Shown here in pieces: positions 22,071-42,913 of a stretch of DNA of 64,000 bases. The stretch is from contig JAFRAO010000016.1 of assembly GCA_017405375.1 (NCBI GenBank), forward strand, positions 1-64,000, in the 5' to 3' direction. This DNA comes from a bacterium. GTDB taxonomy: Bacteria > Cyanobacteriota > Vampirovibrionia > Gastranaerophilales > Gastranaerophilaceae. Numbering within the stretch: position 1 is the first letter of the stretch; every line of letters starts with the position of its first letter. Below the pieces are notes generated by a model. That model did not search any database, had not been told where the DNA came from, and saw only the letters and a program-made list of their open reading frames with translations. The translations under genes were made by a program, and so were the position numbers.

Positions 22071-23024
22071 ATGAAAAAACCTATTTTAGCGATAACAATT
22101 CCTTGCTATAACGAGGAGCTATGTATTGAAAATACTGTGAATAGTTTATTTGAAGTTCTTGATGATTTAATTAAAAAAGATAAAATTGATTTATCCAGTT
22201 TTATTTATTTGGTTGACGACGGGTCAACTGATAAAACTTGGGAGATTATTTCAAAATTACATAACAAACATGCTCGTGTCAGGGGTTTGAAATTTATTAG
22301 AAATTATGGGAATCAAAAAGCTCATATTGCCGGTTTGTTAGGTGTCAGAAAACTTTGTTGCGACTGTGTTGTTTCTATTGATGCTGATTTACAACAAGAC
22401 CAATGGGCTATTGAAAAATTTATTGATAAGTTTATGCAAGGTTATGATATTGTATCAGGAATAAGAAATAGCAGAGATACAGATACTTTTTGGAAAAAAA
22501 CAACTGCAATTTGTTTTTATAAAACGATGAATTTGTTAGGTGTAAAAATTCCTATGAATCATTCTGATTTTAGATTGGTTAGTAAGAAAGCCTTGGATAT
22601 TTTAGCTCAATATCCTGAAAAAGAAATATTTTTAAGAGGTTTTTTTAATGAAGTCGGTTTAAAATCGTCTATTGTAAATTTTGATGTTAAACCAAGAGAA
22701 CAAGGCGAATCAAAGTTTAATTATATGACACTTTTTGCACTTGCTCTAAACGGTATAACTTCATTTAGCATAATGCCTTTGAGAATAATTGCAGCCGTTG
22801 GATTTTTAATGGCATTATTCGCTGTTGGTTTGGGATTAGAAGTTATTTATGAAAAAGTTATACTGGATTCAACTCCAAATGGCTGGGCAACTTTAGTAAT
22901 CTTGCTTGCATTCTTTGGCGGGTTACAATTATTTTGCATGGGAATTATAGGTGAATACGTCGGTCAAGTGTTCAAAGAAGTTAAAGCCAGACCAAGATAT
23001 ATTATCGAAACAGAACTAATATAA
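22071..23024 (+). CDS. Family 2 glycosyltransferase, GtrB/DPM1 type, membrane-anchored
   Basis: A 317-aa enzyme expected to load a sugar from a nucleotide donor onto undecaprenyl phosphate. ITIPCYNEELCIENTV and VDDGSTDKTWE begin the GT-A domain, and SIDADLQQD contains the D-x-D. Two C-terminal membrane helices (about 232-255 and 270-295) match the GtrB/DPM1-like class rather than the soluble enzyme at 16500. Its 3-prime end overlaps a convergent gene by 9 bases. A flippase gene (GtrA) is not nearby. The sugar is unknown. Confidence 0.9.
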   Translation: MKKPILAITIPCYNEELCIENTVNSLFEVLDDLIKKDKIDLSSFIYLVDDGSTDKTWEIISKLHNKHARVRGLKFIRNYGNQKAHIAGLLGVRKLCCDCVVSIDADLQQDQWAIEKFIDKFMQGYDIVSGIRNSRDTDTFWKKTTAICFYKTMNLLGVKIPMNHSDFRLVSKKALDILAQYPEKEIFLRGFFNEVGLKSSIVNFDVKPREQGESKFNYMTLFALALNGITSFSIMPLRIIAAVGFLMALFAVGLGLEVIYEKVILDSTPNGWATLVILLAFFGGLQLFCMGIIGEYVGQVFKEVKARPRYIIETELI

Positions 23025-24185
23025 TCCGTTTTCTCGGTCTTGTTCGTTAATTTTTTTAATAAAATCTTTCATCATACATGCTTCGGTTGTACTTATGCAA
23101 ATTTCAAAATCCGGAACGACTTCTTGAATTTCGTTTTGCATATCTGAGAGTAATCCCGGAATAAATATTCTTTTTATTTTTACTTTGTCATATAAATTGG
23201 AATCTTTAACTGCTTTAGATACAATATTCGCTGTAAATTTTTCTGCTGACCAAGCAGTTAAAACACTCATTCCGTCTGATGGTGTTACAATCAAATACGC
23301 TCCTCTGTCAATCGATTCGAGCTCATTTGCTACTGAAAAATACGTTAGTGCAAAATTTGTTGTTAAAAATATTAGTGCATTCTCATCAGGATTATTAAAT
23401 TCATATACTTTCGGTTCAATTTGTAAAGGCTTTTGCGGGTCAGTAAATATATTTTGCCTTAGGGTTAAAAGTGAAGCAAACATTGATTCATCAAAATCTT
23501 CAAATACAATCATGTTTGCATATTTACATAAATAATAGCTTGCTTTTGCGCATAAATCATACAAATTATTTTGAGATTTTAAATATACATAAGTCGGATT
23601 TGAAAATTCTTCGGCTTTTGTTTTAATCGCAGTCCTTCTGATTAATGTGAGCTTTTCAATATTTTTTCCAAAAGAATCTTCATCAACTTTCATTAAATCT
23701 TTTGGCAGTTCTTGAATAGCCGTAATACCTTTACTTTCAATTTTATTAATGAGTTCAAAAGTTATATTTGAACCTTTTAATAAAACTGCATCAATTTTGA
23801 AATTCTCATTTATTCTTGTGATTTCAAAATCTAAAATGCGTTTGAGTTTTGATTCATAAGGTGTATCTGTATCAATAACAACACAAAAAACTGTCGGATT
23901 GATAAAAGTTTTGTCGTGTCTGAATAGAACTTCTTCTCCACCTATTTTTAAATTGTTTTTTTTACTCAAAACTATTTCTTTTTGAGCTTTTTTCATTGTA
24001 TGAGAAAAAATTCCTTTTAATTCATCAGGCACATAAGGGCATTTTTCAATTTCGACTTCATTTTTTGCTAATTTTAAAGCAAAAGACATGCAAGTCGGAA
24101 ATCCGCATGCTTTACAATTTGAATGTTCTTCCTTTTTGGCTGCGGGTAAGTATTTAAAAATTTGCAATCCGGATAATTCTGCCAT
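23016..24185 (-). CDS. acsC: Corrinoid iron-sulfur protein, gamma (large) subunit-like
   Basis: A 389-aa relative of AcsC/CdhE, the subunit of the corrinoid iron-sulfur protein that carries a 4Fe-4S cluster and cobamide in the Wood-Ljungdahl pathway. The N-terminal C-x2-C-x4-C-x16-C (NCKACGFPTC...KCPY) is the Fes-cluster module. GGEEVLFRHDKTFINP is a strong family signature of the TIM-barrel part. The C-terminal VLTAWSAEKF and IFIPGLLSDM regions correspond to the cobamide-binding end, but this end is shorter and less conserved than usual. The AcsD gene overlaps it by one base upstream. No CODH, acetyl-CoA synthase or methyltransferase gene is present here. Confidence 0.85.
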   Translation of the reverse strand: MAELSGLQIFKYLPAAKKEEHSNCKACGFPTCMSFALKLAKNEVEIEKCPYVPDELKGIFSHTMKKAQKEIVLSKKNNLKIGGEEVLFRHDKTFINPTVFCVVIDTDTPYESKLKRILDFEITRINENFKIDAVLLKGSNITFELINKIESKGITAIQELPKDLMKVDEDSFGKNIEKLTLIRRTAIKTKAEEFSNPTYVYLKSQNNLYDLCAKASYYLCKYANMIVFEDFDESMFASLLTLRQNIFTDPQKPLQIEPKVYEFNNPDENALIFLTTNFALTYFSVANELESIDRGAYLIVTPSDGMSVLTAWSAEKFTANIVSKAVKDSNLYDKVKIKRIFIPGLLSDMQNEIQEVVPDFEICISTTEACMMKDFIKKINEQDRENGLY

Positions 24186-25078
24186 TAATCTAACCCTTTC
24201 AATGTTTCAATACTTTTCGGGTGGTTTAAAACGACAATGTTTGCTCCCGCTGCCGAAATTGCTGAACCTGCTGTTATTTCAAGCATGATTGCTCTATGAT
24301 TTAAATCACCCCAACTGCTTGAAATTTCTTCTGTTTTCGCTTCCTTTGTTTTAAGAGTTTCTTCTCCCGCAAAAGCAATAATTGGCATGTTTAGCATAGA
24401 ATCACCGTCAAATCCGGCAAGTTTTATACGTTCCATAATACTGTAACCGTATTCCAATCCGTATCCTAAACCACCCATGTCAGGATCAATAAGAATTTTA
24501 TCCGGCGAAAGTCCCATCTCTGTTGTTAAAATGTTCATTTCTTTTGCTAAATTTATATCAATCGGTGTTCTTAAGACAAGTACGTGGTTTCCTTTTATAA
24601 CAGAAGGAACAATATTTTTATATGTTTTTTCACTTGCAAATGCTATTATACATTCTCTGTCTAAAACACTTATTAATTCTGGTAATAAAACGCTATCAAT
24701 ATCTGTTTTGTTTATACCTCTAATCATTAAAGGTTTTTTAATAAAAGGTAACAATGACTTTAAAAGATTCTTAGCTTGATTAATCTGCCCTAAATCTTCA
24801 TCAATGTTAAATTTTAATCCCAAAATATCACAAGATGTTTTTTGGGCAAGCTCAATTATCTGTTGCGGATTAGAGTTTGCTTTTGAAAAATATTCTTTTA
24901 CAACAGGATTTGATAATTCCGGATTAAAAATATCTAATTCAAGCGCATATAAAGTTTTTGATGAATTAGAATTTTCGCTTAAAAAACGAAAAGACTTATC
25001 GTTTCCTATCTTTAAGGAATTTATTTCAACAGTTCGTATAGGTTGTTTTATTTCAAAATCAGACATCTTTTCTGGCAT
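24185..25078 (-). CDS. acsD: Corrinoid iron-sulfur protein, delta (small) subunit-like
   Basis: A 297-aa TIM-barrel protein homologous to AcsD/Cdh[21 protein letters not shown], the [10 protein letters not shown] stretch and [17 protein letters not shown] are close to the family consensus. The partner AcsC is translationally coupled (TAATG). It follows ftsH: the 5-prime end overlaps the ftsH stop, with possible starts at 25078 or 25066, neither having a good ribosome site. The pair would form the CFeSP methyl carrier. Its use in a bacterium with no visible CODH/ACS genes here is unclear; other methyl-transfer roles are possible. Confidence 0.85.
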
Positions 25079-26939
25079 TTTTTATTTGTTCCATTAATTC
25101 AACAAATTCTTTTTCGTCCAAAGTTTCCATTTCAAGTAAACGTTTTGCTATTGCATCAAGCATATCACGATTATCGTTTAACAAATCCTTTGCCAAATTA
25201 TACTGTTCATTCACAATTCGTTGAACTTCAGCATCAATTTCAGCAGCAATTTCTTCAGAATAATCTCTTGAATGACCGAAATCTCTGCCCATAAATACGT
25301 GGTCTTGGCTTTTTCCGTATGCTAAATTACCTAATTTTTCACTCATACCATATTTTGTAACCATAGCACGCGCCATTTCGGTAACTTTTTCTAAATCATT
25401 TGATGCGCCTGTTGTTATGAATTCTTTTCCGTAAATTATTTCTTCTGCAATTCTGCCGCCAAGTGTCATTGCTATTTTATCCAACAGTTGAACTTTTTTA
25501 AGGGTTAAATGGTCTTTTTCAGGTAATACCATTGTAACTCCAAGAGCCATACCACGAGGAATAATTGAAACCTTGTGTAGCGGGTCACAATTTTTTAGTA
25601 ATTTTGCTAAAAGAGCATGCCCAACTTCATGATATGCTGTGTTTTCTTTTTCTTCGTCAGAAATGATTTTACTTTTCTTTTCAGGTCCTGCCATAACTTT
25701 ATCTATAGCTTCTTCTAAATCGTCCATATAAATTCTTGTTTTATTATGTCTTGCAGCAAGTAATGCAGCTTCATTTAAAAGATTTTGCAAATCTGCACCT
25801 GTAAATCCCGGAGTACGTTTTGCTAAAGTTTTCAATTCAACTTCTTCCGCTAACGGTTTATTTTTTGCGTGAACTTTCAATATTTGTTCTCTGCCCAAAA
25901 TATCAGGTCTATTGATAACAATTTGTCTGTCAAATCTGCCCGGACGTAAAAGAGCATTATCTAAAATATCAGGTCTGTTTGTTGCTGCAATTACAATAAT
26001 GTTTGTATTTTCGTCGAATCCGTCCATTTCAACGAGTAATTGGTTAAGTGTTTGTTCACGTTCATCATGTCCGCCACCTAAGCCTGCACCGCGTTGTCTG
26101 CCGACTGCATCGATTTCATCAATAAAAATTATGCAAGGTTGATGTTTTTTTGCTTGTTCAAACAAATCTCTAACTCTGCTGGCACCGACACCGACAAACA
26201 TTTCAACAAAGTCTGAACCTGAAATAGAGAAAAACGGAACACCTGCTTCACCGGCAACAGCTTTAGCCATTAACGTTTTACCTGTTCCCGGCGGGCCTAC
26301 TAATAATACGCCTTTTGGAATTTTTGCACCAAGTTTGATATATTTTTCGCCATTTTTTAGAAAATCAACGATTTCTTCAAGTTCTTTTTTCTCTTCGTCA
26401 ATACCCGCAACGTCACTAAACAAAACTTTAACTTTGCTATCCAAAAGCATTTTAGCTCTGCTTTTACCGAATGACATAGCCTGAGAGCCGCCTGCAGAAA
26501 GTCCTTTTGCCATAAGTATTAAAAATATAATAACAAAAACAGGTAAAGCCAATGAACCGATTAGATTTAATATTTTAGAAGATTCGCTCGGTTTCATAAC
26601 AGATATATCAACCTTTGCTTCTTCTAATTTCTTAATCAGATTAGGGTCATTGGGTGTCAAAACCTTATACTGCAAAGTCGGAGTGTTTGATTGAAAATTT
26701 GTATAAATTTTTGGAGTATTTTGAACATTTTTTGCCTTAGGTTGTTCAATAGGCATAGCTAACAAGAAAGTTTTTTCCATTTCAACGGATTTAATTTCTT
26801 TGTTAGCGACTTTTTGCAAGAAGTTAGTGTAAGACAATTCTTGCGTTGTGGTAGTAGGTCCTGTAAAGAGCATGGAAATAAATGCTAAGACCATAATACC
26901 CAATATAATGTACATTCCGAGTGATTGACTTTTATTCAT
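25059..26939 (-). CDS. ftsH: ATP-dependent zinc metalloprotease FtsH
   Basis: A 626-aa membrane protease that removes misfolded and regulatory proteins. It has membrane helices at about 7-25 and 128-148 around an extracytoplasmic loop. The AAA domain has Walker A GPPGTGKT (about 214) and Walker [12 protein letters not shown], followed by the second region of homology. The zinc site is HEVGH (near 440). AAAGGTG precedes the ATG. The downstream CFeSP genes overlap it and are probably on the same transcript. The divergent S74-type gene cluster starts 156 bases away. Confidence 0.96.
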
Positions 26940-27095: not shown

Positions 27096-29639
27096 GTGGG
27101 CAAATCACAAATTAAAAAGAGATTATTAGCTTTCACGTTGGCCGAAATGTTAATCATTTTGGGGATTTTTAGTGTAATTGCGGCGGCAACTTTGCCGATA
27201 TTTACGGCACATAATCGGCTTGGTTCAACTAATTATGATATATCGGGAAACGATGCTTCAGACAAGTGGATTTACGGTTCAAACGGGGCTATGTCGAATG
27301 TTTATAGTTCAGATGCGGGCAAAACTGTTGTTGCGATAGGAATGGAGCCTGTTAGCGGTGATATAGCGGATGGTGCAAAACCGCAGTTGATGATAAACAA
27401 AAATTTAGATAGTGGATATGGTGTTCCAAATTCAAGTCATATAGCGTTTTTGGGAACATCAGGCACAAAAGTTTATAGTAACGGACGTATGTCGCTTTTG
27501 GGTGAAAATGTTGTTATGGGTAATGATGCACTATTTATTTCTCTACATGATGGAGATATTGAACAACACAACATAGCTATAGGTTCAAAATCAGCAAACA
27601 GAGAATCTATGGTATCAGGTGTAACGATAAATTCTGGAGGTATGAAACTACACGATACGGTTGCACTAGGTTATAAATCATTATTTGGCGGTTCAGGACC
27701 ATATAATGTTGCAGTAGGGTCATTTGCAGGATATAAACAATACGGTGAAGCCAACGTTATGTTAGGCAATAAAGCCGGATATAATTCAATAATTGCTGAC
27801 GAAAAAAAAATGTATGGCATTCATATTGGCAATCATGCAGGATTTGACCAGCATAGCTTATCTGCAACGGAGGGCTATCCCATAAATATAGGCTATTACG
27901 TTGCTGAAAAACAGCATGTCTTATTATATCCTGCTGGGATAAAGTATCCCATAAATATTGGTTACTATGCTGCTGCCAATGGATCTCTTGTTGAGGTTGC
28001 CTCAGCTTCATATACTCGTCCAATAAATATAGGAACATTTGCCGGACATGCTTTTTCATATAGCAATAACGCAGGTCAAGTTGACACAATAAATATAGGA
28101 CATTACGCCGGATATAAACATAATTATACAAGTAAAAACAATATGTATTATACCATAAATATAGGTTCTTATGCCGGTGTTGGCGGTGATGATACTACTA
28201 TTGGTATTACTCAAACAAATGATTCATATCCTATAACTGCGATAAACATAGGTAACTTTGCAGGTTATTTGCAGATGGCAAAAAAATCGATTAGTTACCC
28301 TCTAAATGTAGGTACATATGCAGGATATAAACAAATTGCTAAAAGCAATTATGTTTATTATCCAATAAATATAGGTACATTTGCCGGGGCTGAGCAAAGT
28401 TATTACAACTATATTTGCTATCCTATCAATATTGGAATGTATGCAGGGTATAATTACAAAAATACAAGCGGCATTACTTATTATCCAATAAACATAGGAA
28501 ACTATGCGGGTGCTGATAGAACAGAATCCGGTACCCGAGGATATAATATTTGTATAGGTACGGATGCATGCAGAGGTGGTTATGCAAACTATGATATACG
28601 TATAGGTGCAAGAGGCAATTCCATAGGCCTTAGTAGTACTATAATAGGTCTGGCATATGGCGGCGTGTCTACCAAAGACTTGATTGAAAGACGTAGTTAC
28701 TTAGGTTCCGGTTATCCTCACAAAGATGTATATGTAAAAGAAGCCGGGCCTTCAATTACGAATTATTCAGGGTATGGTAATTGTAGTGATTCTGGAACTA
28801 CCAAGACATGTGTAAAGCAGCGAGTAACCTATACTTATTCAAATAAGGCTTGGTCGCCTATTTCGCCTGTTTATTCTGCAGTGTATACATATGAAAAGAG
28901 ATGTGTATTTTATTCTAATTCATTTTCTAATTATGATGGAGCTTATGCAAATTCTTGGAAAAATTATAATTGTTGTGGTTATTACATAAGCACTTCTAAT
29001 ATGTGTGCACCCAGATTTGAGCTAACAAGTGGATCTGGAACTGGTTATGCTATTTCTGTTACTAACCCGACTCCGCAAGAAAATACAAGTAGTTCTAAAT
29101 ACAGCCAATTATTAATTGCTCCTGGAAACACAGCAGGTAATGCATTAACTGATACTGAATATAACAGTAGTTCTATTTTGTTGTATTCTTCACATATTTA
29201 TGGTCCATCAACCTCATTTTTAACTTATTCAGATAAACTTTTAAAAGAGAATATTCACCTATCAAAATATTCCTTGAAGGATTTAAGAAAAATAAACATA
29301 TACGAATATAATTATAAAAACGATAAAAATAGAACAAAAAGAATCGGTGTAATAGCTCAAGAATTACAAAAAATTATTCCGCAAGCTGTTGTTGAAAACA
29401 GAGGATTTTTGAATATCAATTCATGCTGGATAAATTATACTGTCCTAAATTCGGTAAAAGAACTTGTAAATATGGTTGATGAAATGAAAGCGGAATTTGT
29501 TTCTTATGTAAAAGAATTTGTTGCTCTTGTTACACGGGTTAATGATTTAGAAAAAGAAATATCAAATCTTGAACAAGAAAACAAAAAACTTTTGATAACG
29601 GTCGATAAAATGTATAAAAAAGCAAAGGCGATAAAATAA
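27096..29639 (+). CDS. Prepilin-like / NIG-repeat / S74 chaperone surface protein A
   Basis: An 847-aa protein, first of three tandem relatives. GTG start with CTGGAG before it. Residues 1-40 look like a type IV prepilin: a positively charged leader, A-FTLAEM (Ala instead of the usual Gly before the cleavage point) and a hydrophobic helix. The middle (about 180-490) has about ten N-I-G-x-x-A-G repeats roughly 20-30 residues apart, a pattern of trimeric beta-helical tail-fibre and YadA-head proteins. The C-terminus is a Peptidase_S74 intramolecular chaperone. Catalytic dyad S712/K717 sits in SDKLLKENI, so cleavage before S712 would release about 136 residues. These include IGVIAQELQ and a final coiled coil. 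It is probably trimeric and cell-surface; the role is unknown. Confidence 0.85.
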   Translation: MGKSQIKKRLLAFTLAEMLIILGIFSVIAAATLPIFTAHNRLGSTNYDISGNDASDKWIYGSNGAMSNVYSSDAGKTVVAIGMEPVSGDIADGAKPQLMINKNLDSGYGVPNSSHIAFLGTSGTKVYSNGRMSLLGENVVMGNDALFISLHDGDIEQHNIAIGSKSANRESMVSGVTINSGGMKLHDTVALGYKSLFGGSGPYNVAVGSFAGYKQYGEANVMLGNKAGYNSIIADEKKMYGIHIGNHAGFDQHSLSATEGYPINIGYYVAEKQHVLLYPAGIKYPINIGYYAAANGSLVEVASASYTRPINIGTFAGHAFSYSNNAGQVDTINIGHYAGYKHNYTSKNNMYYTINIGSYAGVGGDDTTIGITQTNDSYPITAINIGNFAGYLQMAKKSISYPLNVGTYAGYKQIAKSNYVYYPINIGTFAGAEQSYYNYICYPINIGMYAGYNYKNTSGITYYPINIGNYAGADRTESGTRGYNICIGTDACRGGYANYDIRIGARGNSIGLSSTIIGLAYGGVSTKDLIERRSYLGSGYPHKDVYVKEAGPSITNYSGYGNCSDSGTTKTCVKQRVTYTYSNKAWSPISPVYSAVYTYEKRCVFYSNSFSNYDGAYANSWKNYNCCGYYISTSNMCAPRFELTSGSGTGYAISVTNPTPQENTSSSKYSQLLIAPGNTAGNALTDTEYNSSSILLYSSHIYGPSTSFLTYSDKLLKENIHLSKYSLKDLRKINIYEYNYKNDKNRTKRIGVIAQELQKIIPQAVVENRGFLNINSCWINYTVLNSVKELVNMVDEMKAEFVSYVKEFVALVTRVNDLEKEISNLEQENKKLLITVDKMYKKAKAIK

Positions 29640-29642
29640 AAA

Positions 29643-31649
29643 ATGGCAAAAAACAGGTTAAACAATTTAATAGCGTTTACTTTATCTGAAATGATGGTTG
29701 TTATATTAATTTTTTCTGTTATTTCTGCTGCTATTTTGCCATCAGTTTTGGGTAAAAAACAAACTATCCAAAATTATAATGATGAAACACCTGTTACCCG
29801 TTGGCAAGGTGAAAGTGCAACAAATGGGATATATTATCAAAATGGCAGTACCAATACGCAAATATTTATGGGGCTTCCGTTAGGTACAGCGCTTCCTACC
29901 GATACTCCTAATCCTACACTTACAATAGCAAATTCTGAAAATTCTAAAGATAATCCAGACAAACGCAGTGATATAGAATTTTTTGATAATGGCAAGAATG
30001 TTGGACGTTTAGCTGTTGATGTTTTGTATAAAAATGTTTTATTGGGGAAAAATAATTCTTTGTCGCTAAATTCAGATAATCCGGGTTATAATATTTTGTT
30101 AGGGAATACAAATAAATTATCTAATTCAAATAGAAATGTTTTGATAGGAAATTATATTGACATATCTAAAAGTTCCGATTCAAACTATAATGTTATTATG
30201 GGTTATGGAATTTCAAATATCAATGCTGCAATAGCAAGAAGCGTAAATTTGGGGTATTATACAGGTTCAAATACAGCAGGTGTACAGTCTTATAATGTAA
30301 ACATAGGTCCTTATGCCTCATACAATATTCAACAAGCATCAAGTTATAACGTAAATATCGGTAATGCAGCAGGCAGTTCTTCCAATACCAATACTAAAAA
30401 TACATATAATACGAATATAGGATACTATTCAGGATATGTTGTAAATGATAGTAATACCAATACAAGAACCTTTACGAATGGTGTAAATATAGGCTATTAT
30501 GCAGGGTATATGTATAATTCGCAGGCAGCTATTAGTAATGACGTAAATATAGGAACGTTTTCAGGAACATATTCTGTAAATTATGCCAGTTGTATTGTAG
30601 AGTCCAATGTAAATATAGGCTATTATGCAGGGTATTCAGGGTGTTCATCTAATGAGATGTTTCATAATGTTAGTATAGGAGCTAATGCAGGTCAATATCA
30701 ATCCCGATATAAAAATACTTACCTTGGTGTTAACGCAGGAAATAATTCATCCGGATGGAATAATACTTTTATTGGTTATAGTTCTGGTAAGAGTCAAAAT
30801 AGTAGGAGTAATACATTTATAGGATATAATGCTGGTGTATCACAAAGTGGTTATGATAATGTATTTATAGGATATAATGCCGGTCGTTATCATAAAGGAA
30901 GTTGTAATACATTTGTTGGAATTAATGCCGGACAGTATAATACAAGTTCTACCAGTACGAATTCATATGATGGAAATACTATTATAAGAACATATCATTC
31001 AGATTCAGGAAATTCTCTTTATTCAAGTGATATGACATTGATATCCGGTTATTATGCCGGCACAAGCAATATTTCAACCGGTTGGGCTCCAAAAACAACA
31101 AGTAGTAAAAGACAAACATTAATTGTTGCTCCATATGATGGAACTACTAAATACCCATATAGTAAATCTGTAATAACACTATATGCAAATAAGGTATATG
31201 CGTTTACAAGTACTATAACGTCATATTCTGATAGACGTTTGAAAGAAAACATTGTTCCTGTTGAAAAATCATTAGATAAAATTAAAAAAATCAATGTATA
31301 TGAATTTTCTATGAAATCAGACAAAAATCATGAACCAAGAATTGGTGTTATTGCACAGGAAATTAAAGATATTATCCCGCAAGCTGTTGGTATTCATCCG
31401 TTTACCAAATATTATTACATAAACAGTGACTGGATTATGTTTAACCTTATAAATGCTATAAAAGAGTTAGATAAATATGTACAAGATTTCCAAAGTGATT
31501 TAAAAAGTTATATTACACAGTTGTTTGATATAAAAAATAAACTCGAAATATTAGAAACAAAAATGGAAAATATTGCACATTCTCAAAGTATTATGCAAGT
31601 TAAATTGAAAGAAATAGATAAAAGATTAGACAAAGTGGAGAGTAAGTAA
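29643..31649 (+). CDS. Prepilin-like / NIG-repeat / S74 chaperone surface protein B
   Basis: A 668-aa relative of protein A, starting 3 bases after its stop with no clear ribosome site, so probably translated by coupling. N-terminal A-FTLSEM and a hydrophobic helix repeat the prepilin pattern. About 13 repeats of N-I-G-x-x-A-G or F-I-G-x-x-A-G run from residue 200 to 440. Two of them are coded by an identical 27-base stretch. The C-terminal S74 domain has S529/K534 in SDRRLKENIV, IGVIAQEIK, and a coiled coil to residue 668. Autocleavage would remove about 140 residues. The repeat region is unlike that of A and C in sequence while the ends are conserved. Confidence 0.85.
   Translation: MAKNRLNNLIAFTLSEMMVVILIFSVISAAILPSVLGKKQTIQNYNDETPVTRWQGESATNGIYYQNGSTNTQIFMGLPLGTALPTDTPNPTLTIANSENSKDNPDKRSDIEFFDNGKNVGRLAVDVLYKNVLLGKNNSLSLNSDNPGYNILLGNTNKLSNSNRNVLIGNYIDISKSSDSNYNVIMGYGISNINAAIARSVNLGYYTGSNTAGVQSYNVNIGPYASYNIQQASSYNVNIGNAAGSSSNTNTKNTYNTNIGYYSGYVVNDSNTNTRTFTNGVNIGYYAGYMYNSQAAISNDVNIGTFSGTYSVNYASCIVESNVNIGYYAGYSGCSSNEMFHNVSIGANAGQYQSRYKNTYLGVNAGNNSSGWNNTFIGYSSGKSQNSRSNTFIGYNAGVSQSGYDNVFIGYNAGRYHKGSCNTFVGINAGQYNTSSTSTNSYDGNTIIRTYHSDSGNSLYSSDMTLISGYYAGTSNISTGWAPKTTSSKRQTLIVAPYDGTTKYPYSKSVITLYANKVYAFTSTITSYSDRRLKENIVPVEKSLDKIKKINVYEFSMKSDKNHEPRIGVIAQEIKDIIPQAVGIHPFTKYYYINSDWIMFNLINAIKELDKYVQDFQSDLKSYITQLFDIKNKLEILETKMENIAHSQSIMQVKLKEIDKRLDKVESK
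30483..30509 (+). repeat. 27-bp direct repeat, copy 1
   Basis: The 27 bases are identical to 30609-30635, both coding V-N-I-G-Y-Y-A-G-Y in gene B. Homologous recombination between them would delete one repeat block in frame. Confidence 0.9.
30609..30635 (+). repeat. 27-bp direct repeat, copy 2
   Basis: Second copy of the repeat at 30483-30509. The spacing is 126 bases, a multiple of three, so deletion or expansion keeps the reading frame. Confidence 0.9.
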
Positions 31650-31654
31650 CGGAT

Positions 31655-33670
31655 ATGAAAAAAATGATTATTAAAAATTACATAGCGTTTACTTTAGCAG
31701 AAATGACTCTGGTTTTACTTATCATGAGTATTCTTGCGGCTGTACTTACTCCGTCTATCACAAAAAGTATTTCTTACAATGCAGAAAAAAATGCTCTTTT
31801 TAGCAGTATATCTTCTCCTTGGAAAAATATAACAACAGATTTTCCTTATCCTGGGATGTTTTTTATTCACCCGACATACAACAGTTTTGCACCCCACGGT
31901 ATTGTTTCTATGGGTTATTATACCAATAAAGAGCCAAGTAGTTATAGATACCCTGCATTGATTATACGTTCAAAAAATGACAGTGGTAAATCTAATTTTT
32001 ATTCTAATCCTCAAATAGCTGTCCTTTACAAAAATGGTGCAAGTGTTACAGGTGCTCCTTCTTATAAAATTGGTGTTGATAACAATGACAATACCACAAT
32101 TTTATCAAACAGTTTCTTAAATCCGAAAAAAACAGTTGGACAAACCGGTAACGTTAGTTCTGTATTTATCGGCTATGCAATAAATGCTAATCAGGTAGAA
32201 AGTTATGCTAACAAATCTGTTTACATTGGTAATTATTTATCTCACCTTTATGGTTCGTTAAACACAATAGATATTGGATATGATAATTCTGTTGACAGAT
32301 ATGATTCGAATAATGTTTTGATAGGTAATTATATTCAATTAAAAGCAAATGGTAAAGCTGTAAAGGATTCTGTTTTTATTGGATATAATACAGGTAATAA
32401 TTCAAGTGCACAGTATGATGTTGCAATAGGGGCAAGTGCACATAATAATAACGTAGGAAGCGAAAGAAATATTTCTATTGGTTATCTTGCAGGGGAAAAT
32501 GGTAGCTCAACAAGTGTAAGTGATAATATTTCAATTGGTGCACTTGCTGGGTGGATTGGGATTACTGCTACCAATAGCAGAAGTCAGAATATAAATATTG
32601 GTTTTTCAACATATGGTAGAAATCAAAATAAATGTATAAATATTGGAGCTGATGCTGGGTTTATAGCTTCAGATGAGTCTTCTGAAAACAACATTTTTGT
32701 AGGAAATCGGGCCGGATATTTTGTTTATGGTAATAGTAATATTGCCATTGGAGCTTCTGCAATGGTAAATGATGTTGAAGTTCGTCCATTTTCTAATTCA
32801 ATAAACATCGGTTCCCAAGTTGGAAATAAATCATATAATGTCGATAATGCTATATTGATTGGTGCAGATGATCAAGTTCATAGTATGAGTAGCGATTATT
32901 TATCAAATGATGCTATATTTATTGGGTACATAGGTAGGAATGAAAGTGTGGCTCTTGGACTCCAAAAATCAATAAAAATTGGTGCAGGTGATCAAAATTT
33001 GGGCAAATGGATAAATAATGTAGCAATAGGTTTTAATGCTTGCGGAACAGCAAATATAAAAAATAAATTATGTATAGGTACTAATAGCGGTTTAGGCTCT
33101 GCTATATCTGGTAATGGTTATACTGCTTGGGATCCATCAAATGATAGATTGCAAGCATTTATTGGAAATGCATACGGAAGTAATGCTTATGCAAATAACT
33201 ATATAACTTTATACGCGGCAATGGTATTTGCTCCTACTGCAAGTCCTACTCCTCTAGCCACATCCGACAGGCGTTTGAAAGAAAACATTGTACCATCAAA
33301 GCATTCACTTGATGATATTAGAAAAATCAACATTTACAACTTCAACATGAAAGGTGACAATGAAAAAACTCCGCACATCGGGGTTATCGCTCAGGAACAC
33401 AAAAAAATATTCCCTCTTGCTGTTGTAAAACACCCTGACACAAAATACTACACCGTTTCTGCTGAATGGATGAACTATACTGCGGTTAATGCCGTTAAAG
33501 AAATCGACAAAACAGTTCAACAACTCCAAAAATCATTAAAAGAATTTATCCACGACTTTTTGGGCTTAAAATCACGCGTAGCAAAACTTGAGATAAAATT
33601 AGCTCAACTCAAAAAAGAAAACGAAGATATCAAAAATCATATAAGAATTATTCAAGCACGAATGAAATAA
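31655..33670 (+). CDS. Prepilin-like / NIG-repeat / S74 chaperone surface protein C
   Basis: A 671-aa third member, 6 bases after gene B. It has A-FTLAEM near residue 14, a hydrophobic helix, then a middle with scattered V/S/N-I-G-x-x-A-G-type repeats (about 170-480), looser than in A and B. S537/K542 in SDRRLKENIV starts the S74 domain, followed by IGVIAQEHK and a long coiled coil. The codon choice changes at the S74 boundary: the last 130 codons use C-ending codons (AAC, TAC, CAC, ATC) much more than the middle part. Twenty bases around the catalytic lysine are identical to gene B. Domain exchange is a reasonable inference. Confidence 0.85.
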   Translation: MKKMIIKNYIAFTLAEMTLVLLIMSILAAVLTPSITKSISYNAEKNALFSSISSPWKNITTDFPYPGMFFIHPTYNSFAPHGIVSMGYYTNKEPSSYRYPALIIRSKNDSGKSNFYSNPQIAVLYKNGASVTGAPSYKIGVDNNDNTTILSNSFLNPKKTVGQTGNVSSVFIGYAINANQVESYANKSVYIGNYLSHLYGSLNTIDIGYDNSVDRYDSNNVLIGNYIQLKANGKAVKDSVFIGYNTGNNSSAQYDVAIGASAHNNNVGSERNISIGYLAGENGSSTSVSDNISIGALAGWIGITATNSRSQNINIGFSTYGRNQNKCINIGADAGFIASDESSENNIFVGNRAGYFVYGNSNIAIGASAMVNDVEVRPFSNSINIGSQVGNKSYNVDNAILIGADDQVHSMSSDYLSNDAIFIGYIGRNESVALGLQKSIKIGAGDQNLGKWINNVAIGFNACGTANIKNKLCIGTNSGLGSAISGNGYTAWDPSNDRLQAFIGNAYGSNAYANNYITLYAAMVFAPTASPTPLATSDRRLKENIVPSKHSLDDIRKINIYNFNMKGDNEKTPHIGVIAQEHKKIFPLAVVKHPDTKYYTVSAEWMNYTAVNAVKEIDKTVQQLQKSLKEFIHDFLGLKSRVAKLEIKLAQLKKENEDIKNHIRIIQARMK

Positions 33671-33820: not shown

Positions 33821-33908
33821 GAATTAGCATGCATTTTTAATTATACTATAGTTGAAATGTAAAGAAATGTAAAACGTACGTACAATAGAATAAAAAGAGG
33901 TTAATTTG

Positions 33909-36900
33909 ATGTCGACTAAATTCGCAAAAAGAGTTACTCCAATGGGTATTCCGGCTACTAACTTGGATTATTTACCCGATTTGATTGAAGTGCAAAAAAA
34001 ATCATTTGAATGGTTTTTAAAAGAAGGTTTAAAAGAAGAATTACTTGCTTTTTCACCTATTAAAGACTATACAGGAAGATTAGAATTACATTTTCTTCCT
34101 AACTACACTTTCGATAATGCAAAATACACTATCGAAGAAGCCAGAATTCATGATGCAACTTACGCTAAACAACTTCGTGTTATGGTAAGACTTGTAAACC
34201 GTGATTCAGGTGAAATTAAAGAGCAAGAAGTATACATCGGTGATATTCCTACAATGACTGACAAAGGTACTTTCATTGTAAACGGTGCAGAACGTGTTAT
34301 CGTATCTCAAATCGTTCGTTCTCCTGGTGTTTACTTCAAACGCGAAGTATCTCCGACAGGTAAACGTTTGTATAACGCTACAATTATTCCTAACAGAGGT
34401 GCTTGGATTAAAATCGAAACTGATTCTAACGATTTGATTTACGTTAAAATTGATAAAAACAGAAAAATTTTGGCAACAACTCTGTTAAAAGCTATGGGCT
34501 TATCTGTTGCTGAAATGGAAGCATCTTTCTCACACTTTGATTTCTTGAAGAAAACTTTAGAAAAAGATACTGCAGAAACTACAGAAGATGCATTGATTGA
34601 TGTTTATAAAAAACTAAGACCTGGTGATCCTGCATCTGCTCAAGGCGGACGCCAAATTATCGAAGCTCGTTTCTTTGATGAAAAGAAATACGATATCGGT
34701 CGTGTAGGTCGTTATAAATTAAATAAAAAATTAAACTTGAATATTCCTGCTTCTCAAAGAACTTTGACTATTCAAGATATTGTTTCATCAATAGAATACT
34801 TGATTAACTTAACTTATGATGAAGGTTCAGTTGATGATATTGACCACTTAGGAAACAGACGTGTTCGTTCAGTTGGTGAATTGTTACAAAACCAATTCAG
34901 AGTTGGTTTAAGCCGTATTGAAAGAATCGTTAAGGAAAGAATGACACTACAAGATAGTGAAACTCTTACTCCATTGAATTTATTAAATACAAAACCATTG
35001 ATAGCTTCATTGAAAGAGTTTTTCGGAAGTTCTCAATTATCGCAATTTATGGACCAAATCAATCCGTTAGCTGAATTAACTCACAAAAGACGTATTTCAG
35101 CTTTAGGACCCGGTGGTTTGCAAAGAGAACGCGCAGGATTTGCTGTACGTGATATTCACCCTTCTCACTACGGACGTATTTGTCCTATAGAAACTCCTGA
35201 AGGTCCAAACGCTGGTTTGATTGGTTCTTTGGCAACTCACGCTAAAGTTAATGATTACGGATTCATTGAATCTCCATTCTTTGTTGTAAAAGATGGTGTA
35301 GTAACTGATGAAGTAGTTTATATGTCAGCAGACGAAGATGAAAACTATCGTTGCGCTCCTGCTGACGTTGAAATGAACGAAGACAGAACATTTAAAGATG
35401 CGCAAGTTCCTGTTCGTTACAGATCGGAATTTATCATGTGCGAATCTTCAAAAGTTGACTTTGTTGGAGTTTGTCCAATCCAAATTATTTCGGTTGCAAC
35501 TTCTGTAATTCCATTTATTGAGCACGATGATGCCAACCGTGCATTGATGGGTTCAAACATGCAACGTCAATCTGTTCCTTTGTTAATTACAGAAAGACCA
35601 AGAGTTGCAACAGGTATGGAAGCAAGAGCTGCAAGAGATTCAGGTATGCTTGTTATTTCTGAATATGATGGTGTTGTTGAAAGAGTTGTAGGTGAAGAAA
35701 TTACAATTCGTGATACGCAAGGTGTTCCTCACGTATATCAATTAATGAAATATGTAAGAAGTAACCAAGATACTTGCATAAATCAAAAAGCTATAGTAAA
35801 AGAAGGCGATGAAGTAAAAGCAGGCGATGTAATTGCAGATGGTGCTTCAACATGCGGTGGTGAACTTTCATTAGGTAAAAATGTTTTAATTGCATATATG
35901 CCTTGGGAAGGATATAACTTCGAAGATGCTATTCTTTTATCAGAAAGATGCGTTCACGATGATATATTCACATCTGTTCATATTGAAAAATTAGAAATAG
36001 ATGCAAGACAAACAAAATTAGGACCTGAAGAAATTACTCGTGAAATTCCGAATGTTTCAGAAGATTCATTAAGACACTTGGATGAACGTGGTATTGTTCG
36101 TATTGGTGCTCGTGTTTATGCAGATGATATATTGGTAGGTAAAGTTACACCGAAAGGTGAATCAGATCATCCGCCTGAAGAAAAATTATTAAGAGCAATC
36201 TTTGCAGAAAAAGCAAGAGATGTAAAAGATAATTCATTAAGAGTTCCTCACGGTGAAGGTGGTAGAGTTCTTGATGTTAAGGTATTTGACAGAGAAAAAG
36301 GTGATGAATTACCACCGGGAGCAAATACAGTAATCAGAGTTTATATAGCTCAAAAACGTAAAGTATCAGTAGGCGACAAACTTTCAGGACGTTATGGTAA
36401 TAAAGGTATTGTATCAAGAATTCTTGCAAAAGAAGATATGCCATTCTTGCCTGATGGTACTCCTGTTGATGTTGTGTTGAACCCTCTTGGTGTTCCTTCT
36501 CGTATGAATGTGGGTCAAACTTATGAACACTTATTAGGTTTAGCTTCATATTTAACAAACGACTATTATGCAGCACCTTCATTTGATGAACGTTTCGGTA
36601 AAAATATGTCTGAAAAAGTTACAAAAGAAGAATTGTTGCGTGGTATAAAAGAAACAGGCTGCGATTGGGTAGGTGAAGATGGAAAAGTTCGTTTAATCGA
36701 CGGTCGTACAGGTGAACCGTTTGATGAACCTGTTGCTGTTGGTTTAACTTACTTCTTAAAACTTGTTCACTTGGTTGATGATAAAATTCATGCTCGTTCA
36801 ACAGGTCCTTACTCATTAGTTACACAACAACCTTTGGGTGGTAAAGCACAATTTGGCGGTCAAAGATTCGGTGAAATGGAAGTTTGGGCGTTAGAAGCAT

Positions 36901-37223
36901 ATGGTGCAGCTTATACACTTCAAGAAATGCTTACAATCAAATCTGATGATGTCAACGGACGTAACAGAGCATACGAAGCAATCGTAAAAGGTGATAATAT
37001 TCCAAGACCCGGTATTCCTGAATCATTTAAGGTACTTGTAAGAGAACTGCAAAGTATTGGTTTGGATATTACGGTTGCTAAGAAAGATGGCGTTGAAGTT
37101 GACTTAATGAGTGATATTGATGATTTAAGAAAAGCAGCTCCAAAACGTACATTATCTGATATTGATTCAGAATTATTAAATATTAATTTCTTTGAAACAC
37201 CAACAACTTTCGGTGATATATAA
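33909..37223 (+). CDS. rpoB: RNA polymerase beta subunit
   Basis: A 1104-aa subunit of about the size of the cyanobacterial beta. All the major conserved blocks are visible, such as the GRMTL-type fork region ([33 protein letters not shown]) and the C-terminal [21 protein letters not shown] start at ATG 33909 after AGAGG; a TTG one codon earlier is less likely. Ribosomal protein genes rplKAJL do not precede it, unlike in many bacteria. rpoC1 follows after 93 bases that contain a long hairpin. Confidence 0.98.
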
Positions 37224-37316: not shown

Positions 37317-39026
37317 ATGTCAACAAGTATAGATTATTTTGACTATATACGAATCAGTATAGCATCACCGGAGAGAATTCTAAAATGGTCATACGGTGAA
37401 GTTACAAAACCTGAAACTATTAATTACCGTACATTAAAACCGGAAAGAGACGGTTTATTCTGTGAAAGAATTTTTGGACCAACAAAGGATTGGGAATGCT
37501 ATTGCGGTAAGTACAAAAGAGTAAGACACAAAGGTATCATTTGTGAACGATGTGGTGTAGAAGTTACAGATTCAAAAGTACGTCGTCATAGAATGGGACA
37601 CATAAAATTAGCTGCTCCTGTTTCTCACATTTGGTTTTTAAAAGGTATTCCTTCTTATTTAGGTTTACTTTTAGATATGACATTAAAAGATTTGGAACAG
37701 GTAATATATTTCAATAGCTATGTAGTTATTGATCCGGCAGATACAGAATTCAGAAAACTTCAATTATTAAATGAAGAAGAATACGAAGATTATTTAATGG
37801 AACATGAAGAAACTGAATTAAAAGTAGGTATTGGCGCAGAGGCAATTAAAGAATTACTTGGCGAAATTGATGTAAAAGCATTGGCTGAAGAAATCAGAAA
37901 TGAATTGGCTGCAGGTGTAAATTCAGTTCAAAGAAAAGGTAAACTAATTAAACGTTTAAGATTATTGGATTCATTAATTTCAAGTGAAACAGATCCAACT
38001 TGGATGATAATGGATGTACTTCCTGTAACACCACCTGATTTAAGACCAATGGTTCAGCTAGACGGCGGACGTTTTGCAACATCAGATTTAAACGATTTAT
38101 ACAGACGTGTAATTAACAGAAACAACCGTTTACAAAGATTATTGGAAATGGGTGCTCCTGAAATTATTGTAAGAAACGAAAAACGTATGTTACAAGAAGC
38201 AGTAGATGCTCTAATTGATAATGGTCGTCGCGGTAGAACAGTTGTTGGTCCAAATAACAGACCATTAAAATCATTGTCTAACATCATTGAAGGTAAACAA
38301 GGTCGTTTCCGTCAAAACTTGTTAGGTAAACGTGTTGACTATTCAGGTCGTTCAGTAATCGTAGTTGGTCCAACATTAGAATTGAACCAATGCGGTTTAC
38401 CAAAAGAAATGGCAATTGAATTATTCAAACCGTTTGTTGTGAATAAATTAATCGAACGCGGATATGTTCAGAATATAAAATCTGCGAAGAAACGAATTGA
38501 GCGTTCAGAAGCTATTGTATGGGATATATTGGAAGAAGTAATTGACGGACATCCGGTAATGTTAAACCGTGCTCCGACCCTTCACAGACTTGGTATTCAA
38601 GCATTTGAACCGAAACTTGTAGAAGGTCGTGCAATTCAATTACACCCATTGGTATGTACAGCATTCAACGCTGACTTTGATGGCGACCAAATGGCAGTTC
38701 ACGTTCCATTAAGTATTGAAGCTCAAACAGAAGCAAGAATGTTGATGTTAGCTACAAATAATATATTGGCTCCTGCAACAGGAAAACCTATCATAACTCC
38801 ATCACAGGATATGGTTATGGGTATGTATTATTTAACACTTATCAGGGACGAAAATATGGTTCCGACAAAATATTTCTACAATTTCCAAGATGCGATAGCC
38901 GCTTTGGAAGCTAATGTTATCAAATTACATGACAAAATCTATGTAAGAGATGAACGCGGTAAACGTTTTGAAACAACCGTAGGTAGAATTATTTTTAATG
39001 AAGCAGTAAGAAACGCAATTTTATAA
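37317..39026 (+). CDS. rpoC1: RNA polymerase gamma subunit (N-terminal part of beta-prime)
   Basis: A 569-aa protein equal to the N-terminal third of beta-prime. It has the zinc motif with paired cysteines (CYCGKYK... CERCGVE), and the catalytic [12 protein letters not shown] near residue 455 that binds the active-site magnesium. It ends where cyanobacterial and plastid RpoC1 end, and RpoC2 follows on the same transcript. This split is the best lineage marker in the window. It is slightly shorter than the roughly 620-residue cyanobacterial protein. GGAG precedes the ATG. Confidence 0.97.
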
Positions 39027-39046
39027 TAAATAAGGGTAGAATAATA

Positions 39047-42000
39047 ATGACAAATACATATACAACACAGAAAAAAACGATTGATTTCATTAATAAACAA
39101 ATGGATAAAGGCGCTTTAAAAAATTTATTGGCACAAATTTATCTTGAATTCGGTGGTGCAAAAACAGCAACATTGGCAAATACGCTAAAGAATTTAGGTT
39201 ATCATTATGCTACTAAATCAGGCGTAACAATTTCAATTTCGGATTTATCAGTTCCTGAAATAAAACAACAATTATTAAAAGAAGCTGATGAAGAAATCGG
39301 AAAATCAACAAAAAGATACTTAAAGGGTGAAATTACCGAAGTAGAAAGATATACAAAGGTTATTGACACTTGGTCAGAAACAACAGCAAAATTAACAGAG
39401 CAAGTAGTTAAAAACTTTGACAGATTGAATCCGGTATATATGATGGCATTCTCAGGTGCCAGAGGTAACTTATCACAAGTATCGCAATTGGTTGGTATGC
39501 GTGGTTTGATGGCTGATGCGCAAGGTCAAATCATTGACTTGCCTATCCGTTCAAACTTTAAGGAAGGTCTTTCTTGTACTGAATATATCATTTCTTCATA
39601 CGGTGCACGTAAAGGTCTTGTAGATACAGCGTTGAAAACAGCCGATTCAGGTTATTTGACAAGACGTTTGGTTGACGTTGCTCAAGATGTTATTATCCGC
39701 GATCACGATTGTCATGGTAAAAAACATATCATGTTGAGAGGTATCTATGATGGCGATATTTGTATTGTTCCTTTAATTGACAGGTTATTGGGCAGAACAA
39801 TCGCTCAGGATATATTAGACAAAGACGGTAACTTATTAGTTGCATCTAATACAACATTAGACAGAAACGACATTAAGAAAATCGAACGTTCAGGTATTGA
39901 ATTAAATGAATTAGCTGTTCGTTCAGGTTTAACTTGTGAATTGGAATATGGTATTTGCCAAAAATGTTACGGTTGGGCAATGACAACTCAGAAATTAGTT
40001 GATATTGGTGAATCAATCGGTATTATTGCAGCTCAATCAATCGGTGAACCCGGAACACAATTAACAATGAGAACATTCCACACAGGTGGTGTATTCAAAG
40101 GTTCAGGTGCAATGAAACATATTATTGCAGAAGAAGCCGGAGAAATTGTTTCAGACGTTAAAACTCGTGAAGTAAGAACTCGTCATGGTGATGTTGTTCA
40201 AATCTTGATTATTGAATCTGATATTGAAGTTAAAGGTGAAAAGAAATCAAGAAAATATCACATTCCTGCAGGTGCAAAAATTTTATTCAAAAAAGGTCAA
40301 AAAATTGAAAAAGGATTTGAACTTGCAGAATACGAACCTGTATCACAAGGTGATGGTTCTCGTTTAACAGAAAAAGCTACAAAGGATATTACATCTGACT
40401 TATCAGGCGAAGTTGTTTACTATGATTTTACTGCAGATGAAAAGAAAGACAGACAAGGTAATGTTTCAAGAACAGCAAACAAGAGCGGTGTAGTTTGGGT
40501 TTTAGGTGGCGATGTTTATAACTTACCGGGCGGTTCAAAAGTTCTTGTAAAAGATGAACAAACAATAAAAGAAGGTGAAAAATTAGCCGAAACCTTAACT
40601 ATATGTGAACATGGCGGTGAAGTTAGAGTTGGCGATGATTTAGAAATAGAAGAAGTAAAATTTGAAGGCAAGAAGATTAAAAAGATTGTTTCAGGTAAAG
40701 AATTAACAATTGTAATAGCATCTATTTCGCCATCAAATGCTACATTCGAACAAACTAAAAAAGAACAACTTTGGACAGTTGATAAGACAGGTGAAAAATA
40801 TATTGTTAAATCTCCTGTTGATACAACAGTTGAAAACGGTATGATTATTGCGGAATTGATTAGTGAAGATTGTACTGTTTCTTCATCAGGTGAAATAAAA
40901 TATATTGATGTAGAAGTTGATGAAAATCAAATTATTACGAAAGCCGGTGATGTAGTATTTATTCCTGAAGAAGTTCATCAAATAAATAAAGAATCTTCTT
41001 TAAAAATGGTTGAATCAGGAACGCATGTTACAGCAGGTACTGAAGTTGTAAAAGATATATATTGTCATTTGGATGGTATTGTTGAAATCAAGGAATACAA
41101 CGATATAATTCATGAAGTATCAATCAGACCTGGTGAAATACATCAACTGGCAAATGTTTCAGAATTAAAAGTTGAAGAAGGCGAAGTTATCAAGAAGGGT
41201 ACCGTAATTGCAGAGGGTATCGTTGCAAAACAAACTTCAATGGTAACAATTTTAGATTCTGACATTGATGATTTGGATATTGAAAATTTGGATGATGAAA
41301 TGGATTCATCTTTGGGACTTGATGAAGATAATCTTGCAAATCAACCTATTCAAATTTTGGTAAGACCGGTTCAAGTTATTAAAGTTGAACAAAAAGGTGT
41401 TTCTATTGATTTCAATACAACGGATGAATTAATTGATATTGTTCCTGTAACTCAACTGCAATATAAAGATGGTGCAAGAGTTAGAAACTTAGATGGTGCG
41501 ACATTAATCAGAACAAGTTTAGTTCTTCAAATGCAAGGTTATTTATCACACTTAAAAGGTATGGTAGAACTTGATGAAAAAGGTGCATTAAAAATTGTTG
41601 TATTAGATAAGTTAATTGTTCGTCGTGAAATTGAGTCAAATTCTAAATTAAATGATTCATTGCAAACAGAATTATTAGTTAAAAACGGTCAACAAATTGA
41701 ACCAAAGACACCTGTTGCAAAAACTTGTGTTTTAGCTATAAATTCAGGTATAGCATCAATTAAAAATGAATCAGAAGATGCGAGAAGATTGTTATTAATT
41801 TGTGAAAACAATAAAACAAAAGTAGCAATCAAATCAAAATCAGTTGTAAAAGCAGGTCAATTTATAAAAGAAGATGATTTATTAACAGAAGGCGAAGACA
41901 GAGCACCTGTTTCAGGTCAAATAGTTGATGTAACTAAATCAGAAATCACAATAAGAAATGGCAGACCATACTTAATCAGCCCGGGTACAATGCTTCAGGT

Positions 42001-42913
42001 TGCTGCTGGTTCATTGGTACAACGTGGTGATATGCTTGTTACATTGGTTTATGAAAGACAAAAAACAGGTGATATTGTACAGGGTCTTCCAAGAGTTGAA
42101 GAATTGCTAGAAGGAAGAAAGCCAAAAGATTCTGCAATATTAGCTGAACAAGATGGTATCGCAATTATTGAAACTGATGATGATATGCCAAGATTATATT
42201 TGCAAACAGAAGATGGTTCAAGAACAGAAATTAAGTTTGCGATAGATTCAAATATTGTAGTACAAAACAAACAGAAGATTAAAAAGGGTCAACCATTAAC
42301 AAGCGGACCTTTAAATCCACATGATGTTATGAGATTATGCGGACCTGAAGTTGCACAACAATATTTAGTAGATGAAGTACAAAGAGTATATCGTTCACAA
42401 GGTGTAGAAATTGCAGATAAGCACGTTGAAATCATCGTAAGACAAATGACTAAGAAAGTTAGAGTTGTTGATGCGGGTGATACAAACTTATTGCCTGGTG
42501 AATTAATTGAAGTACAGATATTTGAAAAAGAAAATGAAGCTGTAGCAGCAAATGGCGGTCAGCTTGCAACTTGTGAATATATGTTGTTAGGTATAACAAA
42601 GGCTTCATTAAATACTGAATCATTTATTTCAGCAGCATCATTCCAAGAAACAACGAGAATTCTTACAGAAGCTGCAGTAGATGGTAAGAAAGACTTATTA
42701 AGAGGTTTGAAAGAAAACGTTATTATTGGTCGTTTGATTCCTGCAGGTACAGGCTATTATCACTTAACTCATGCAAATGAAGAAAGAGATAAAGAAGCAC
42801 AAAGACGTGCAGCACAAAGAAATCAGGCAAGAAAACCATCAGCAATTTTAGAGGAAATTGAAGGGATGTTCGGTGCTCCTGAATTTTCTATTGATGATGA
42901 TATAATTGGCTAA
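39047..42913 (+). CDS. rpoC2: RNA polymerase beta-prime subunit, C-terminal part (RpoC2)
   Basis: A 1288-aa continuation of beta-prime. The start has the RpoC2-type helical rim ([17 protein letters not shown]). The trigger-loop and bridge-helix region includes [20 protein letters not shown], and a zinc ligand set is [11 protein letters not shown]. Between about residues 350 and 1000 lies a long insertion of beta-rich repeat units (many G-D-x-V and I-x-x-G turns), the place of the SI3 insertion of cyanobacterial RpoC2. The C-terminus resumes the conserved jaw/clamp ([10 protein letters not shown]... LLPGELI). AAGGG precedes the ATG. A strong terminator follows at 42931. Confidence 0.97.

Follow-up and report, generated by a model that had tools for sequence, protein, structure and literature searches.

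Modular type IV pilins, such as PilB and PilC of Streptococcus sanguinis, consist of a prepilin N-terminus onto which an effector has been grafted, and are proposed to sit at the pilus tip (PMC8179133). A pilin plus S74 architecture (IPR012902–IPR030392) was listed in 2021 among the common architectures of this class, though only as a 'predicted peptidase', and a Gracilibacteria protein is named among the modular pilins in the same work (PMC8179133); IPR030392 is an intramolecular chaperone domain. CofB and TcpB, the tip minor pilins of type IVb pili, are also large, trimeric proteins of the pilus tip (as described in PMC8179133). Away from pili, Bdellovibrio bacteriovorus displays on its surface a repertoire of mosaic adhesive trimers (MATs), which are long beta fibres of trimeric build that terminate in an S74 domain with an SDxxxK motif, and self-cleavage has been demonstrated for the bacterial S74 fibre Bd3182 (PMC10769870). 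The S74 chaperones of phage endosialidase and of MYRF (3GW6, 7DC3) combine a Ser/Lys dyad with a C-terminal coiled coil, residues S587 and K592 of MYRF being essential and equivalent to S911 and K916 of the endosialidase (PMC8326128). Finally, the heads of the trimeric autotransporter adhesins YadA and CbpF are left-handed beta-rolls with SVAIG-like repeats.

Three tandem genes of a Gastranaerophilales bacterium, described here, resemble each of these systems in part. In common with the S. sanguinis proteins they have a prepilin N-terminus and a grafted effector, but the effector is a beta-roll of trimeric type, there is no recognisable pilin globular domain and S74 probably serves to mature the protein and is not itself the effector. 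They are S74-terminated beta fibres, as are the members of the MAT S74 subgroup, but they open with a prepilin start in the position of the signal peptide of MATs, which in those proteins leads into a conserved beta domain of ~130 aa. CofB and TcpB, going by their published description, differ in that neither S74 nor a beta-roll is mentioned for them. Unlike the trimeric autotransporters, they end in S74 and a coiled coil, the anchor barrel is absent among the Pfam matches and export and anchoring would follow the pilin route; unlike endosialidase and MYRF, they carry S74 on a bacterial, pilin-anchored fibre.

We propose that these genes code for modular type IV pilins with a trimeric adhesive beta-roll effector, matured by a self-cutting S74 chaperone, and put the probability of this at roughly two in three. 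Such proteins would unite the modular adhesin of pilus tips with the phage chaperone that helps a trimeric fibre to fold and afterwards detaches itself by self-cleavage. Their host lineage, a gut relative of cyanobacteria, is widespread but has received little study. A literature search, with subscription journals mostly outside its coverage, found no paper joining prepilin or pilin with S74 names apart from the listing in PMC8179133. What is new is the lineage-wide linkage of the two modules, a probable effector in the form of the YadA-like roll, the interpretation of S74 as a maturation device, the conservation of the triplet and the pattern of constant ends and variable middles.

The locus and its neighbourhood

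The window, that is the whole stretch of DNA analysed, is 64,000 nucleotides long and comes from a draft genome of 1.78 Mb that is 88.6% complete. Three ORFs, of 847, 668 and 671 aa, lie in tandem on its forward strand (27096..29639, 29643..31649 and 31655..33670) with spacers of 3 and 5 bp; an ORF check returned exactly the coordinates and sizes given for these neighbouring genes in an earlier sequence-only reading. Gene 1 has a GTG start preceded by a GGAG-like ribosome site, and a search for a terminator 3' of gene 3 found no stable hairpin.

To the left, on the reverse strand, lies a 626 aa ORF (25059..26939) which, from its sequence, we take to be FtsH, and to the right, on the forward strand, an ORF of 1105 aa (33906..37223) that on the same basis is presumably RpoB. 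Both fall outside the pilin-S74 system, and the FtsH flank shows that the neighbourhood is a chromosomal, housekeeping one. The same FtsH/RpoB-flanked site holds pilin-S74 genes in four congeners; the congener genomes as a group have origins that include sheep ileum, reindeer and other sources. Further out, and judged by eye, two reverse-strand ORFs (23016-25078) resemble corrinoid iron-sulfur protein subunits of the acetyl-CoA pathway, and on the forward strand (37317-42913) rpoC apparently exists as two separate genes (569 and 1288 aa), an arrangement also found in cyanobacteria.

The prepilin N-terminus

Each protein opens with a short predicted prepilin leader: 12 aa in protein 1 (27096..27131, predicted cut A12/F13 within the motif A/FTLAEM, with a hydrophobic helix next), 11 aa in protein 2 (29643..29675, A11/F12, followed by a helix at residues 14-36) and 11 aa in protein 3 (31655..31687, A11/F12, from motif alignment). 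In any single protein the motif is weak (Pfam N_methyl E 0.01-0.02, under the cut-off; ComGC model against protein 2 E 6.5e-6, under the model's own cut-off), and the signature was therefore tested across homologues, as [AG]/[FY][TS]L.E plus a hydrophobic helix. It is found in 57 of the 59 S74 ORFs encoded by the window and 40 family contigs, and the remaining two have lost their 5' ends at contig ends, so that every intact N-terminus (57/57) is positive. This survey of pilin plus S74 proteins bears out the claim, made from the sequence, that the S74 fibres are fused to prepilin N-termini.

The strict signature is present in none of the 181 other ORFs of at least 300 aa on the same contigs, ruling out a chance motif. 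Nor is a prepilin start seen in any of 64 viral S74 ORFs with complete N-termini, or in the S74 ORFs sampled from Bacteroidota, Streptococcus, Verrucomicrobia and others; in a profile search of genome contigs, all 12 pilin-positive S74 matches came from congeners. The alignment of all 57 proteins has no residue other than A or G at position -1 and shows no variation at L3, E5 or P22. Of these features, E5 was demanded by the search pattern; L3, P22 and the restriction at -1 were not.

The glutamate at position 5 of pilins has a role in methylation and assembly, not in cutting, and its invariance thus argues for a function beyond anchoring. The pilin part here consists of the N-terminal helix only (residues 14-36 or 14-45), with no pilin globular domain recognised by Pfam or evident in the AF2 models, which have low confidence there. 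That these proteins enter a pilus is therefore less sure than it would be for complete modular pilins. It is conceivable that the fibres are processed by prepilin peptidase and held in the membrane but never built into a pilus, the helix serving only to anchor a trimer of the periplasm or cell surface, or to export it as a class III signal. A recognisable pilin helix without a recognisable globular domain speaks for such an arrangement, but mere anchoring should need neither E5 nor P22, and a secretin and a pilus motor accompany the genes in congeners; we regard it as unlikely, though not negligible.

The S74 chaperone and its coiled coil

At the other end of each protein is an S74 domain, with Pfam scores of 48.8, 63.3 and 56.0 bits for genes 1 to 3 (E 8.5e-13, 2.5e-17 and 5e-15) against a curated cut-off of 22. 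In gene 1 the domain lies at 29229..29504 (Pfam and alignment; predicted cut before S712), in gene 2 at 31227..31502 (Pfam, profile, model and Foldseek) and in gene 3 at 33263..33538 (Pfam and alignment). The Ser/Lys dyads S712/K717, S529/K534 and S537/K542 are exactly those claimed in the sequence-only reading, and the SDxxxK motif is invariant in 57 of 57 aligned proteins. MYRF S587/K592 align on S529/K534 of protein 2 and, in our own reading of the alignments, MYRF R590, Q639 and K671 correspond to R532, Q572 and K607.

Behind each S74 domain follows a C-terminal coiled coil, at 29505..29636 in gene 1 (by alignment; proteins 2 and 3 are modelled as helical in the equivalent region), at 31503..31646 in gene 2 (helix 595-667 in the model) and at 33539..33667 in gene 3 (helix 603-670).

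The beta-roll middle

Between the ends lie repeats, at 27579..28637 in gene 1 (motif count), 30000..30929 in gene 2 (profile, AF2 model, structure comparison and motif count) and 32171..33088 in gene 3 (motif count and AF2 model). That all three middles are repetitive had been noticed from the sequence, but the motif is better written [IVLF]Gxx[AS] than [NF]-I-G-x-x-A-G: in this form it occurs 16, 13 and 10 times in proteins 1, 2 and 3, compared with 3.2, 1.8 and 2.5 expected from shuffles. The spacing is mostly 16-29 residues and exactly 16 for the last repeats of protein 2. Conserved cysteines, possibly forming disulphides, are found near the end of the roll in gene 1 (C486/C492) and gene 3 (C463/C473).

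Searched against the PDB, a profile built from 40 proteins matched the YadA head (1p9h, E 4e-8), as well as S74 structures (phage tail fibre 8jov, MYRF 7dc3, 6f45 and 3gud) and type IV pilins. The AF2 monomer model of protein 2 (mean pLDDT 75) runs from the helix at 14-36 through a beta-roll predicted with confidence to the C-terminal coiled coil; that of protein 3 (mean pLDDT 70) has the same order of parts. Confidence is low around the cleavage site and stalk (residues 457-534 of protein 2), which would fit a segment that perhaps acquires its fold only on trimerisation. VIA-align superposed the roll on CbpF (Z 13) and on YadA (Z 11.4), with 15-16% of residues identical, and also on enzymes with a left-handed beta-helix. 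Z by itself cannot tell the two groups apart, but identity to trimeric adhesins is 12-16% compared with 2-11% for the enzymes. The best Foldseek matches were to the MYRF chaperone, none of them below E 0.001. On these models and comparisons, the middle is a predicted YadA/CbpF-like left-handed beta-roll.

Constant ends and variable middles

In six genomes of the genus, every gene of the triplet is matched by an orthologue at its own position, and the order is kept (the first position in five congeners). Between orthologues, identity falls from 68% at the N-terminus to 54% in S74, 47% in the coiled coil and 36% in the middle, the last close to the 31.5% seen between paralogues; for the neighbouring FtsH the figure is 88-89% (four congeners) and for RpoB 97% (one congener). 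Dispersed copies within one genome show the pattern as well. Eight copies in G404 are 95.5% identical at the N-terminus and 93.8% in the S74-coiled coil region but 44.9% in the middle, and for six copies in G206 the corresponding values are 92.5, 82.7 and 55.8%. The earlier suggestion that the middles differ while the ends are kept thus holds both between orthologues and within genomes. From these identities, the constant ends would be the handling parts and the fast-changing middle the binding part.

Might the three paralogues together form one heterotrimeric fibre? This is a sub-question of the modular-pilin reading, and the two are not exclusive of one another. The positional orthologues in the genus, together with a tandem triplet of the same kind in another family of the order (G449, L291), would fit such a fibre, but many genomes of the family have one, two, four or up to 12 copies and the coiled coils of the paralogues are only ~24% identical. 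To our knowledge, S74 proteins with solved structures are homotrimers, which also counts against it. We consider a heterotrimer distinctly improbable; the conserved triplet suggests instead three fibres of different specificity.

A model for assembly and function

Under the modular-pilin reading, the precursor would be exported by Sec and the prepilin helix would retain it in the inner membrane, with prepilin peptidase presumably cutting after A(-1). Three copies would meet in the periplasm where, by analogy with S74 and YadA homologues, S74 and the C-terminal coiled coil would pair the chains and fold the roll into a trimeric fibre. The Ser/Lys dyad is then predicted to cut before Ser, freeing a chaperone-coiled-coil fragment of 135-140 residues (all catalytic residues are present). 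The PilB/PilC/PilQ machinery would take up the finished trimer, most likely at the pilus tip, and the fibre would be displayed outside the cell as an adhesin, its role probably being to grip surfaces or other cells.

More tentatively, and with slightly less than even confidence, we suggest that Gastranaerophilales keep a diversifying repertoire of pilus-borne, self-trimming trimeric adhesins for gripping host or microbial surfaces, with middles in rapid turnover through repeat change or through recombination between dispersed copies. The pilin S74 module, so far listed as a predicted peptidase, is recast by this model as a folding and maturation tool, and the constant-end, variable-middle families provide proteins whose ligands could be sought.

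Pilus machinery

In the 88.6% complete draft of the organism itself, Peptidase A24, T2SSF and secretin models had no match, and neither did the PilD protein of congener G025: PilB, PilC, PilQ and PilD were not found, only two shorter PilT-like ATPases. PilD and a long PilB-type ATPase are each present in 6/6 congeners, however, the G025 PilD being 58-61% identical to the other five, and in G025 the genes for PilQ, PilB and PilC adjoin. Draft gaps are therefore the simplest and most likely reason for the absence, and loss of the machinery from this organism is disfavoured. More broadly, prepilin peptidase is encoded by 217 of 228 family genomes. A search for PilY1 gave no match at all, the controls included, and is uninformative.

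The sequence-only reading had allowed for assembly by either pilin or type II secretion machinery. What we find is a type IV pilus-like system with PilT, rather than one for type II secretion. That the proteins cap a type II secretion-like pseudopilus and not an adhesive pilus is very unlikely: GspG and GspH models do match the N-terminus weakly, but N-terminal motif models do not separate pilins from pseudopilins, and the PilT-like ATPases are a type IV pilus feature.

Distribution of pilin-S74 proteins

S74 is encoded in 106 of 239 family genomes. Up to 12 copies per genome occur in G020, G206 and G404, several of them cut at contig ends. Beyond the order, an S74 ORF of another member of the Cyanobacteriota (G251, L292) lacks the prepilin signature. 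Three Gracilibacteria S74 ORFs, read with code 25, showed no prepilin start, but two of the three are truncated where the locus ends, so that the combination may still occur in that lineage. In a tree built from S74 domains, which is short of columns, the pilin-S74 group needs two changes; as far as these sequences go, the combination may have a single origin.

Although the S74 domains match phage tail fibre families and phage records, we reject derivation of the locus from a remnant prophage or phage tail fibre genes as scarcely credible, given the housekeeping FtsH/RpoB flanks at the same site in four congeners, the lack of prepilin starts among the viral S74 ORFs, the clustering of pilin-S74 domains on the tree and an N-terminus left uncovered by phage matches, among the matches listed.

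Other prepilin-motif genes

The organism's own draft genome contains 54 prepilin-motif matches in its 1.78 Mb (L073-L102, for example). Many of these ORFs are paralogues of ~220-345 aa with near-identical starts (FTLAETLIVMGIIGVVAALTIPN), possibly a variable pilin family, and several of them lie at contig ends, as if repeated 5' DNA had broken the assembly.
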